Shown piece after piece: positions 54,178 to 58,419 of a DNA stretch of 64,000 nucleotides. A program made the translations under genes and the position numbers. Source of the stretch: an actinobacterium SCGC AAA278-O22. GTDB lineage: Bacteria; Actinomycetota; Actinomycetes; Nanopelagicales; Nanopelagicaceae. Positions within the stretch are counted from its first letter, which is position 1; each line of letters opens with the position of its first letter. The stretch covers positions 67,873 through 131,872 of the forward strand of contig AQUA01000002.1 of the NCBI GenBank assembly GCA_000372185.1, given 5' to 3'. The notes below the pieces were generated by a model. That model saw nothing but the letters and a program-made list of their open reading frames with translations. It did no database searches and was not told where the DNA came from.

Positions 54178-55075
54178 ATCTGGTTCTGGCTGGATAGCTT
54201 CCTATTTAGCCCTAGGGCTAGCGTGGGGCTGCTCGTTCATCTTTATCAAGCTAGGCCTAGAATTCTTAACGCCATTTGGCGTTGCCTTTGGACGATGTGC
54301 ACTGGGAGCGGCAACTCTTCTTATCGTTGCTCGCATTCGTGGCACCCAACTACCTTCAGATCGCATTGTGCGCTTTCACATATGGGTCGTTGCACTTTTG
54401 CTCAATGTGATTCCGGGAATTCTCTTTGCTCTTGCAGAGACCGAAGTAACGTCGATACTTGCAGGAATTATCAATGCAGTAACTCCCTTGATGACAATCA
54501 TCGCAATTCTGGTTGTCAATCGCGAAGAAAAACCCAAGTCATTTCAATTAATTGGGTTGGCAATAGGATTTATTGGAGTGCTGACTGTTCTTGGAGTCTG
54601 GAAGGGGCTTGGAGAGAATCCATTGTGGGCAATTCTCGTGCTCCTTCTTGCCGTCTCTTGCTACGGGATCTCATTTCCATACACGCGCAGATTTGTCATG
54701 CCATATAAATTAAAATCTGAATCTGTCGTTTCACTTCAACTTACACTTGCGGCTTTCACTCTGCTTCCGTTCTATCTCTTTGATGGGATTGCCAAAGATG
54801 AATATCGAGTTGGACCAATACTTGGAATGTTAGGGCTTGGCATATTTGGTAGTGGTTTTGCTTATCTATGGAATTTTAAGGTTATGGAAGAAGCAGGCAG
54901 TGCGATTGCCAGCACTGTTACTTACTTAACGCCGGTTGTTGCAGTTATTGTTGGCTTGATATTTCTCAATGAGGAAATTACTTGGCATGAACCTGTGGGA
55001 GCGCTCATTGTTTTGCTAGGAGCCGCAATCGCTCAAGAGCGAATCAGAATTAGTCGATCTTCCAACCATCTTTAA
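54152..55075 (+). CDS. EamA/DMT-family transporter
   Basis: 307 residues with ten helices in two EamA repeats. Repeat one: YLALGLAWGCSFIFIKLGL and LAETEVTSILAGIINAVTPL. Repeat two: AVSCYGISFPYTRRF and GSAIASTVTYLTPVVAVIVG, ending FLNEEITWHEPVGALIVLLG. It exports small metabolites; substrate unknown. The GTG at 54152 lies within the last 26 bases of ctaE, so it is probably co-transcribed with the oxidase. It ends overlapping the nickel transporter by 26 bases, antisense. Confidence 0.88.
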   Translation: MPSHSASPKSGSGWIASYLALGLAWGCSFIFIKLGLEFLTPFGVAFGRCALGAATLLIVARIRGTQLPSDRIVRFHIWVVALLLNVIPGILFALAETEVTSILAGIINAVTPLMTIIAILVVNREEKPKSFQLIGLAIGFIGVLTVLGVWKGLGENPLWAILVLLLAVSCYGISFPYTRRFVMPYKLKSESVVSLQLTLAAFTLLPFYLFDGIAKDEYRVGPILGMLGLGIFGSGFAYLWNFKVMEEAGSAIASTVTYLTPVVAVIVGLIFLNEEITWHEPVGALIVLLGAAIAQERIRISRSSNHL

Positions 55076-56237
55076 TCGGTCCTAAATCAATACCAGCTGC
55101 AGCGTGGTCGGTATTTTCTCCTCGCGCCATTTGAGCAGCATGGGCGGTGTTATGCCAGCGTTCTTCGATTTTTCCATAGCGCCACAAGAGAAGGGCGATA
55201 GCCCAGACAACAGCGAAAGCGCCCACAATAAAGTAGCCAGCTGCGTTGAGATCGAAATCTAAGGCGTAATCCCAGAATCCACCTGTGAGGCTGAGTTGGT
55301 TTGCAAGCACTTGGCAGAGCTCAAGCCCACCAACAAAGAGTGCAACTGCAACTGACAGTCCAGTAATAATGATGTTGTAATACACCTTACGCACTGGCTT
55401 TGAAAATGCCCAGCCATAAGCAAAATTCATAAAAGAACCATCGATGGTGTCCAGCAAACTCATTCCTCCTGCAAAAAAGAGGGGGAGCGAGATTATTGCC
55501 CACCAAGGAAGACCTGCAATAACTGAAGATCCTGCAAGAACGAGTAAACCAATTTCAGTTGCGGTATCAAATCCAAGTCCAAAGAGAATTCCGAGCGGAT
55601 ACATCTTCCAACTTGCATCAATACGACGAGCTATCGGTCCGAAGAAGCGCATCAACAACCCACGCGAGTTGAGATGTTTTTCGAGCTCTTCTTCGTTGTA
55701 CATACCCTTGCGCATTTGCAAGAAGACACCAACAATAGAGATGAGAATCATCAAATTTAAAAGAGCGATAACAAGCAAGAAGGTTCCTGACACCGTGGTG
55801 CCAATTAAGCCGGTGTAATGGTGCAAAGTGGAATTGTCATCTTTCAGTTGGCTACCAACAGCTTTAATTCCAAAGTTCAATAGAATTGCTAACGTTGCAA
55901 CAACTGATGAGTGACCGAGTGAAAAGAAGAATCCAACTGCTAACGGGCGCTTGCCTTCAGACATTAATTTTCGAGTCGTGTTATCGATGGCGCTGATGTG
56001 ATCAGCATCGAATGCATGTCGCATGCCAAGTGTGTATGCGAGTGCTGCTGTTCCCCAGCCGAAGAGTGAGCCATCAGCGAGTTGATACTTTCCAGTGGTG
56101 GCTTTCCACATCAAGAGCGCTCCAGCAATGTGAAGGAATGCGATAAAGCCGAACATCAGCCCCATGCGGCGCCATTCGTCGCGTGTGAGGCGATCGCGCA
56201 TAGGAATCTTGGGCGCTGGGCGTACAACTTCGTTCAC
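55050..56237 (-). CDS. nickel/cobalt transporter, NiCoT family
   Basis: 395 residues, eight helices, HoxN/NixA family. All four signatures are present: RHAFDADHISAIDNTTR, FFFSLGHSSVV, GLGFDTATEIG and GGMSLLDTIDG. The protein imports Ni2+ and/or Co2+ for enzymes such as Ni-superoxide dismutase, urease or hydrogenase; none of these is in the window. GTG at 56237 is the start, with AAAGGG before it. Upstream are two palindromic Nur-type boxes around a promoter (56258-56310), so repression by nickel is likely. Confidence 0.93.
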   Translation of the reverse strand: MNEVVRPAPKIPMRDRLTRDEWRRMGLMFGFIAFLHIAGALLMWKATTGKYQLADGSLFGWGTAALAYTLGMRHAFDADHISAIDNTTRKLMSEGKRPLAVGFFFSLGHSSVVATLAILLNFGIKAVGSQLKDDNSTLHHYTGLIGTTVSGTFLLVIALLNLMILISIVGVFLQMRKGMYNEEELEKHLNSRGLLMRFFGPIARRIDASWKMYPLGILFGLGFDTATEIGLLVLAGSSVIAGLPWWAIISLPLFFAGGMSLLDTIDGSFMNFAYGWAFSKPVRKVYYNIIITGLSVAVALFVGGLELCQVLANQLSLTGGFWDYALDFDLNAAGYFIVGAFAVVWAIALLLWRYGKIEERWHNTAHAAQMARGENTDHAAAGIDLGPIKDGWKID

Positions 56238-56257
56238 GGGGAGCCCTTTCTAGCTAG

Positions 56258-56274
56258 ATGCAAATCATTTGCAA
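56258..56274 (-). promoter_or_regulatory. Nur-type operator box 1 (proximal) of the nickel transporter
   Basis: ATGCAA-ATCAT-TTGCAA, containing the perfect palindrome TGCAAATCATTTGCA. It fits the nickel-responsive Fur-family (Nur) box of Streptomyces, TTGCAA-N5-TTGCAA. It lies just at the predicted transcription start. Confidence 0.7.
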
Positions 56275-56281
56275 CAACACA

Positions 56282-56310
56282 AGGTTATGCTAGATGCAAA
56301 CCATTTGCAA
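56282..56310 (-). promoter_or_regulatory. promoter of the nickel transporter
   Basis: On the minus strand TTGCAA (56305-56310) and TAACCT (56282-56287) are 17 bases apart, ordinary -35/-10 spacing. The -35 is part of Nur box 2, so bound repressor would block polymerase. The expected start, near 56275, touches Nur box 1. Confidence 0.55.
56294..56310 (-). promoter_or_regulatory. Nur-type operator box 2 (distal) of the nickel transporter
   Basis: ATGCAA-ACCAT-TTGCAA. With box 1 it forms a 22-base direct repeat (56253-56274 and 56289-56310) with one mismatch and a 36-base period. It overlaps the -35 hexamer. Confidence 0.7.
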
Positions 56311-56418
56311 GAAGAAAAGGTTAAGGGAGAAATTAGGCGCATGCGAGTTGAAATAACCACGGCACAGGCAGCGTTAGGTCTACAGTGCGGGAATCTCGAG
56401 TTGTTGGGGGGTCTTTAG

Positions 56419-57381
56419 ATGAGTGATGACGAAGGCCAGGACGAGCTAGTTACTGAAGAGATGCTGTGGGATCGAATCCCAGAGGTCCAAGGTGAAGAAC
56501 GTGCCAATACGTATTACGAGCTCTCTGCCCGAATCTTTGCTCGCGGCCAATATGACGAAGCGCTCGCGCTCGCCGAAACTGCGCGAGATATTTTCTCTGA
56601 ACTCGGAGCATCTGCACCCAGTGAAGGGCTAGCGCAAGCATATTCAGCAATTGGTTACAACCTTAACCAATTAAAACGAATGGATGAAGCTGCAACTGCA
56701 ATGAGCAAAGCAGTATCTATTTTGCGCGAAAACAAATCTCCTATTGCTCTTGAACTTGCCTGCACCTTAGGTGAGTGGTGGTATGCATCAAAGAATTACG
56801 AAAAAGTCATTGAAACTATGTATGAATGTTCGCAAGAACATTTAGTTGATGGAAATACAATTGGTGCTGCTAACGATATGCACCTGATTGGTTGTGCGCA
56901 GCGCGAACTAAAGAATTATGCCGAAGCAATTATCTGTTTCCAAGAAGCGCGCAAAATGTTTAAACTTGAAAAAGAAGTTATCCATGTAGCTCGCTGCGAT
57001 CAGAAGATTGCATCTTGCTATGTTGAACTCGGCGATGGTGAAAAAGCAATCGATGCTGCTCGAAAGGCAATCGATGTCTTTGAGACTGCGCATGATCATC
57101 GTCGCGAAACTTTTGCCCTCTTTGAGTTTGGCAAGGCAGAAATACTTCTTGGCAAACTTGAAGATGGACTTTCAACTCTTGATGGAGTTCTACAAATCAT
57201 CGCCGAAGAAGAACCAAAAGATTTTGAATTTATTCTAGATATTGAAGAACGAATGGTTTCTGTGATGCGCCAGCTCGGGCGCATGGATGAAGCTGATGAG
57301 GTCGAAAGACGCCTTAAGACTGTGCGTGAAGCCCTTGCTGATGAACCAGCTTCTGAGGCCGACTCCACACTCAACGACTAA
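56419..57381 (+). CDS. tetratricopeptide-repeat protein
   Basis: 320 residues, soluble and acidic, largely helical TPR pairs: YYELSARIFARGQYDEALAL, AYSAIGYNLNQLKRMDEAA, DMHLIGCAQRELKNYAEAI, KIASCYVELGDGEKAIDAA and FGKAEILLGKLEDGLSTL. Such proteins act as binding scaffolds. GGGGGG lies before the ATG at about eight bases. The stop abuts the next start (TAAATG), so it probably partners in some way with the membrane transporter that follows. Confidence 0.8.
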   Translation: MSDDEGQDELVTEEMLWDRIPEVQGEERANTYYELSARIFARGQYDEALALAETARDIFSELGASAPSEGLAQAYSAIGYNLNQLKRMDEAATAMSKAVSILRENKSPIALELACTLGEWWYASKNYEKVIETMYECSQEHLVDGNTIGAANDMHLIGCAQRELKNYAEAIICFQEARKMFKLEKEVIHVARCDQKIASCYVELGDGEKAIDAARKAIDVFETAHDHRRETFALFEFGKAEILLGKLEDGLSTLDGVLQIIAEEEPKDFEFILDIEERMVSVMRQLGRMDEADEVERRLKTVREALADEPASEADSTLND

Positions 57382-58419
57382 ATGATCCAATCGTTTTCAG
57401 GGGCTGACGCAGCCCTTTTTATCTCTGTCTTCTTAGCATGTGCAGTTGAAGCGGTCGAAGCTGTCACAATCGTTCTCGCAGCGGGGACATCGCGAAACTG
57501 GAAGTCATCGTTTCAAGGTGTCATCTCAGCTTTAGTGGTCCTTGTTGCGCTGATTGCTCTACTTGGCCCCAATATTGAAAAACTTCCTGAAAATACCCTT
57601 CGATTAGCAGTCGGAGGGCTATTACTTGTTTTCGGCATGCAATGGCTTCGGAAAGCAATCTTGCGTGCGAGTGGATTTAAGGCGCTCCATGATGAAGAAA
57701 AGATCTTTCAAGAAGAGGTACGTGCTTCACAATCTGTAGCTCGAGTTTCACATTTTATTGTTAGCGATTGGTATGCCTTTACACTCTCATTTAAAGGGGT
57801 ATTACTCGAGGGACTCGAAGTAGTATTTATTGTGCTCACCTTTGGAGTGATTCAAAAGGGTGCAAATCCACAAGCGCTTTCTCTAGCTATCTGGGGTGCG
57901 CTTATTGCAGTTGTTATCGTCACCATTGCAGGATTTGTAATACATAAGCCACTCTCCAAAGTTCCTGAAAATACGATGAAATTTATTGTCGGCGTACTCC
58001 TTACTTCCTTTGGAATTTTTTGGGGCACCGAGGGCGTGGGAGTGAACTGGCCTCATCACGATTTATCTCTGCTTGGGATAATTCCATTTGTTGTGGCAGT
58101 CAGCTTTGTGCTTATTCAACTTCTTAAGGTACGTAAAGCGAAGAATTATGCAGTCCGGCCGCTAAATATTCCCAGCTTTCATCAGCCGCAAAGAACTTCA
58201 TCCAGATTGGTTCGGTTGGTTGGAGGATTCCTCTTCTTTTGGTATGACTTCATCATCGGCGATGACTGGCGAGTGGCTGCAGCAATAGCGCTTGGTTTAC
58301 TTTCGACTCACCAAATTGGTTCGCAATCGTGGTGGCTCATGCCGATGGCTTTCGCTGCAATCCTTACCTTTACTTTGCTCGAGGCAAGTGCTGCAAAGCC
58401 CAGTGATACATCGCAATAG
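57382..58419 (+). CDS. two-repeat membrane transporter-like protein (COG4280-like)
   Basis: 345 residues and about eight to nine helices. The chain is an internal duplication: ACAVEAVEAVTIVLAAG (E23, E26) matches KGVLLEGLEVVFIVLTFG (E143, E146), and PENTLRLAVGGLLLVFGMQW matches PENTMKFIVGVLLTSFGIFW. Paired ExxE motifs in helices resemble FTR1-type iron permeases (REGLE) and GDT1/MntP-type cation transporters. A metal-cation exporter or permease is a reasonable guess, not a proof. The end overlaps the opposing methyltransferase by 50 bases. Confidence 0.65.
   Translation: MIQSFSGADAALFISVFLACAVEAVEAVTIVLAAGTSRNWKSSFQGVISALVVLVALIALLGPNIEKLPENTLRLAVGGLLLVFGMQWLRKAILRASGFKALHDEEKIFQEEVRASQSVARVSHFIVSDWYAFTLSFKGVLLEGLEVVFIVLTFGVIQKGANPQALSLAIWGALIAVVIVTIAGFVIHKPLSKVPENTMKFIVGVLLTSFGIFWGTEGVGVNWPHHDLSLLGIIPFVVAVSFVLIQLLKVRKAKNYAVRPLNIPSFHQPQRTSSRLVRLVGGFLFFWYDFIIGDDWRVAAAIALGLLSTHQIGSQSWWLMPMAFAAILTFTLLEASAAKPSDTSQ

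Follow-up and report, generated by a model that had tools for sequence, protein, structure and literature searches.

The closest described counterpart of this locus is the Nur regulon of Streptomyces coelicolor, with boxes before sodF and nikABCDE. The published Nur box reads tTGCaa-N5-ttGCAA (PMC3919588), and ygfZ adjoins nur in that organism (PMC4531530). A second point of comparison is NikR, a single nickel repressor that governs unrelated transporters (PMC2667541), spanning NikABCDE, NikMNQO and NiCoT systems.

The window analysed here is a stretch of 64,000 nucleotides (64 kb) from the genome of a freshwater acI actinobacterium (Nanopelagicaceae), 1.14 Mb in size, 75% complete and in a fragmented assembly. 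Close relatives of this genome are freshwater acI actinobacteria, several of them labelled Candidatus Planktophila or Nanopelagicaceae; the acI actinobacteria rank among the most abundant bacteria of lakes. The locus shares with S. coelicolor a Nur orthologue, with ygfZ directly downstream of nur, and boxes that fit the published tTGCaa-N5-ttGCAA form and overlap a predicted nickel-uptake promoter. It differs in its target, which is NikABCDE in S. coelicolor and NicT or a CbiM-type ECF transporter here; in the absence of sodF, the nickel superoxide dismutase (NiSOD) being the only SOD found; in the loss of one M-site histidine from the Nur proteins of the family; and in the operator, which is doubled in the window species. 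As in the NikR system, one nickel repressor would preside over unrelated transporter families. NikR, however, belongs to a different protein family and uses different operators, Nur being the likely regulator here, and the exchange of transporters described below occurs among close relatives and partly behind one promoter.

The doubled box upstream of nicT

The features of the locus are as follows (boxes carry no strand; promoter functions are putative).

55050..56237, minus strand: nicT, NiCoT-family nickel transporter, 395 aa, GTG start; Pfam NicO, 324 bits
56244..56251, minus strand: putative Shine-Dalgarno-like AGAAAGGG, 6 nt upstream of the GTG
56258..56274: proximal predicted Nur box ATGCAAATCATTTGCAA, derived copy, over the predicted start of P2
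56282..56287, minus strand: putative P2 -10, TAACCT, derived copy
56294..56310: distal predicted Nur box ATGCAAACCATTTGCAA, ancestral position, after the P1 -10 and overlapping the P2 -35
56305..56310, minus strand: putative P2 -35-like TTGCAA within the distal box, 17 bp from the P2 -10
56318..56323, minus strand: P1 -10, TAACCT, ancestral, aligned with the -10 of relatives
56341..56346, minus strand: putative P1 -35 position, TCGCAT, weak, 17 bp from the P1 -10

The product of the gene is predicted to be a NicT-type nickel transporter with nickel uptake activity. It passes the NCBIfam NicT equivalog NF052500 (498.5 bits against a cut-off of 450), from which it shows no notable difference, and its translation contains RHAFDADHI, FFSLGHSSVV, LGFDTATE and GMSLLDTID, which we take to be the four signature motifs of NiCoT proteins and which the first-pass annotation had reported in full.

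The two boxes lie 36 bp apart and are the only exact matches to WTGCAA-N5-TTGCAA in the window. Each forms a 7-1-7 palindrome (TGCAAAY-N-RTTTGCA), and the family consensus around the box extends over about 25 bp (CTAnWTGCAAAYNRTTTGCAWnTAG). With twelve fixed bases, about 0.005 such sites are expected in the window and a pair within 60 bp only at about 2e-8; this expectation, along with conservation across the family, excludes a chance origin of the pair. The direct repeat GCTAGATGCAAAYCATTTGCAA described by the first-pass annotation (56253-56274 and 56289-56310, 22 bp, one mismatch) is confirmed, as is the 17-bp spacing between its TTGCAA -35 (56310-56305, minus strand) and TAACCT -10 (56287-56282, minus strand). 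The predicted start of either promoter coincides with a box or lies close to one. Since a spacing of 36 bp corresponds to about 3.4 helical turns, two dimers bound here would sit on roughly opposite faces of the DNA.

Alignment with the nearest relatives shows that the repeat is part of a larger unit of about 36 bp, comprising the -10, the box and CTAGC, that is duplicated in tandem in the window (31/36 identical), and that the distal box occupies the ancestral place. Because the unit includes TAACCT, the distal box has a -10 of its own at 56323-56318. Other promoters of the family carry one box after a -10 of the form TAACCT or TACCCT, and in many other genera a -35-like TGGACA lies 17 bp above this -10. 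The pattern of two neighbouring boxes matches one of 135 genus genomes, that of the window; none of the other 134 has tandem boxes. These observations indicate that the one-box arrangement is ancestral and that the double box, seen in one assembly, is a derived, species-specific duplication. The earlier proposal that two operators bracket the promoter thus stands as regards both boxes and the promoter, but not as the original design: that design has one box, and since the distal box is ancestral and the unit duplicated, the bracketed TTGCAA-17-TAACCT promoter is the younger P2, with the older P1 upstream of it.

The second box could also have arisen by duplication as a neutral change, or through misassembly, with the ancestral box alone being of consequence, a reading that we consider quite possible but do not prefer. 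Every other promoter examined has a single box, and the double form occurs in one of the 135 genomes and in a fragmented assembly. The two units nevertheless differ at 5 of 36 positions, which argues against a simple assembly stutter; the palindrome and TAACCT are kept in both copies; and P2 gains a -35-like element matching TTGACA at four of six positions, where P1 has a weak -35.

The regulator and the reach of its box

The first-pass annotation had made its nickel reading depend on a Fur-family regulator in the genome and proposed a search for a Nur/Fur homologue. One Fur-family gene was detected in the window genome, and its product is a Nur orthologue: the best PDB match is S. coelicolor Nur (3EYY, E=3e-45; next match 9e-16), with 71/130 residues identical. 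In 30 of 30 Nur proteins of the family (nur loci L128-L157), H33, H70, H72, H88, H90 and H126 are kept, as are cysteines 93, 96, 133 and 136, and position H86 is Leu or Ile. If, as we assume, the Ni-site histidines are 70, 72 and 126 and the M-site histidines 33, 86, 88 and 90, with H86 serving as an M-site ligand in S. coelicolor, the Ni-site is complete in these proteins and the M-site retains 33, 88 and 90 without 86, a departure that counts against the Nur reading. The M-site of Nur has four histidine ligands (PMC7055735).

Close Nur orthologues (at least 65% identity) occur in 59 of 61 family genomes, the other two having distant Fur-family matches only. A second Fur-family gene, about 33% identical, is present in many relatives; as the window genome is 75% complete, this gene may be missing from its assembly. 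A further point against Nur comes from G041 (L244, 94% complete), where neither a close Nur nor NiSOD was found and a boxed CbiM is kept; the genes could be on their way out, or the assembly could have gaps.

The box is found before NicO in all 67 distinct family promoters, compared with 46 of 468 control stretches (present at no more than 5 mismatches in both sets), and lies just downstream of the -10, between it and the start codon. It also occurs in 8/10 promoters of more distant NicO copies of the family (about 45% identity), and a few NicO genes outside the family, in other actinobacteria, are likewise preceded by it (L111, L113, L121, L125 and L126). Two other near-matches in the window genome (C1:132463 and C2:63176) have neighbouring ORFs that lack a clear nickel link and are probably due to chance. 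The Nur orthologue, the 67 conserved boxes and the boxed replacement Ni/Co transporters support the initial identification of Nur-type nickel operators at the transporter promoter, and we consider it very probable, on comparative grounds, that this is a nickel-controlled promoter of NicT repressed by Ni-loaded Nur through the palindromic boxes.

Under such control, Ni-loaded Nur dimers would bind the palindromic boxes at nicT, cover the region of the transcription start and here also a -35, and block RNA polymerase, with nickel acting as co-repressor. When nickel is short, Nur would release the DNA and NicT would be made, importing nickel for NiSOD, the only SOD type found. In the window species, the duplicated unit of -10 and operator would provide a pair of promoters that overlap, both of them boxed at the predicted start, and transcription might proceed from P1 or P2.

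A different regulator, either the second Fur-family protein (Fur/Zur type) or a regulator of boxes before sulfur genes, could instead read these sites. That second gene, common among relatives, would be one candidate, and the other is suggested by a class of boxes of the approximate form TTGCRAGTNACTYGCAA found before cysK, a Cys/Met PLP enzyme, a secreted rhodanese and a DUF4395-(rhodanese-DUF1416)-nur operon (L210, L212, L226, L230, L208, L206, L209, L211; L190:1490-1506; L275-L294). Because similar boxes occur in these places as well, box sequence alone is no proof of Nur. Yet Nur is the only Fur-family gene found in the window genome, and the box agrees with the Nur consensus from the literature (PMC3919588). 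Across the family, close Nur orthologues are retained much more consistently than the second Fur-type gene, and where a transporter gene follows a near-perfect box in these genomes, it encodes a Ni/Co transporter from one or the other of two unrelated families. We thus consider a different regulator improbable. The sulfur-gene and nur-operon boxes may belong to Nur, which would then regulate itself and a set of sulfur genes, or may be read by another protein; they leave the assignment of the transporters to Nur standing. Upstream of DUF4395 there is also a conserved short reading frame ending in ...GSLCRM-stop (L280, L281 and L283), which looks like a cysteine leader peptide.

Nickel superoxide dismutase

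NiSOD is encoded in the window genome and in 58 of 61 family genomes overall, and no Fe/Mn SOD was found in any of the 61, the window genome included (Cu/Zn SOD lay outside this search). The NiSOD of the window genome begins HCDLPCGVY, presumably the nickel hook of NiSOD, and its gene is accompanied by a divergent signal-peptidase-like gene that resembles the NiSOD maturation protease and scores below the cut-off of that model. With NiSOD as the only SOD type found in these acI genomes, nickel supply should be vital.

The first-pass annotation suggested scanning for a further box before sodN, and that scan came back empty: no box at 3 or fewer mismatches was present in 40 sodN loci, and a direct Nur box before sodN is rejected on this basis. 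Because boxes are lacking near sodN, Nur most plausibly controls nickel import here rather than the choice of SOD. An Fe-SOD as a second Nur target is likewise rejected, no Fe/Mn SOD having been found in the 61 genomes.

Exchange of the transporter behind the operator

The switch itself is of a known kind; its more interesting side is the family-wide exchange of the transporter. Among the 61 family genomes, 43 have NicO, 16 have CbiM (15 found by Pfam, plus G008, whose gene runs off the contig), none has both, and two have NicO remnants only. Apart from these two, genomes without NicO have a CbiM-type ECF permease instead (L221-L224, L239-L253 and L274), and a box lies shortly upstream of the ATG in all 15 Pfam-found CbiM genes and in G008. 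The two exceptions (G019, L254; G082, L255) have Nur and NiSOD, with NicO remnants next to a gene of about 465 aa; no CbiM was found in either.

In G061, G079, G016 and G127, CbiM occupies the locus that holds NicO in the window: the neighbouring TPR gene, oriented divergently, and the rRNA-methylase-like gene nearby are the same. This TPR gene was not found beside CbiM in the other four genus genomes that have CbiM. The CbiM promoters of G061 and G079 are 87% and 80% identical, respectively, to NicO promoters of relatives; CbiM in these two genomes stands behind what is essentially the NicO promoter. CbiM in G016 and G127 lies behind a different, probably leaderless promoter. The G020 locus (L248:1077-1500) is a snapshot of transporter replacement: a stop-containing NicO remnant, with a degenerate box of its own, immediately precedes a CbiM that is intact and boxed. 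On a tree of 18 genomes, built from the nur and sodN regions and thus from few genes whose recombination could disturb it, six changes of transporter type are required, and opposite transporters occur in sister genomes (G079/G097, G067/G103 and G016/G040).

On balance we lean towards viewing nickel uptake as a swappable slot, in which the Nur operator is kept, NicT and CbiM flip about six times among 18 genomes and two species had the coding region exchanged behind what is essentially the resident promoter. The doubled box would then be a further, local tuning of this slot, in which two promoters and two Nur dimers might give the window species a tighter or steeper nickel response. A Nur-controlled importer, whether NicT or CbiM-type, would predict the nickel supply line of each species, and sister species with opposite transporters and the same kind of operator offer natural pairs for asking what drives replacement. 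Our literature search found no report of Nur governing unrelated transporters in these bacteria, nor of Nur or nickel uptake in Nanopelagicales.

That the transporter imports cobalt and the box serves cobalt or B12 control is very unlikely: the NiCoT and CbiM families do include cobalt transporters (PMC2667541) and NCBIfam names the CbiM matches cobalt transporters, below cut-off, but the NicT equivalog match is above cut-off, the transporters occur together with NiSOD and Nur, and the window has no B12 riboswitch.

Rfam matches in the window comprise tRNAs and the SRP RNA only, and an RNA element as an explanation is rejected on this basis. On the plus strand, the region at 56419-58419 of the window holds the divergent TPR gene and, after it, the gene for a membrane protein that weakly resembles OFeT/GDT1 metal permeases and is possibly a second metal transporter.
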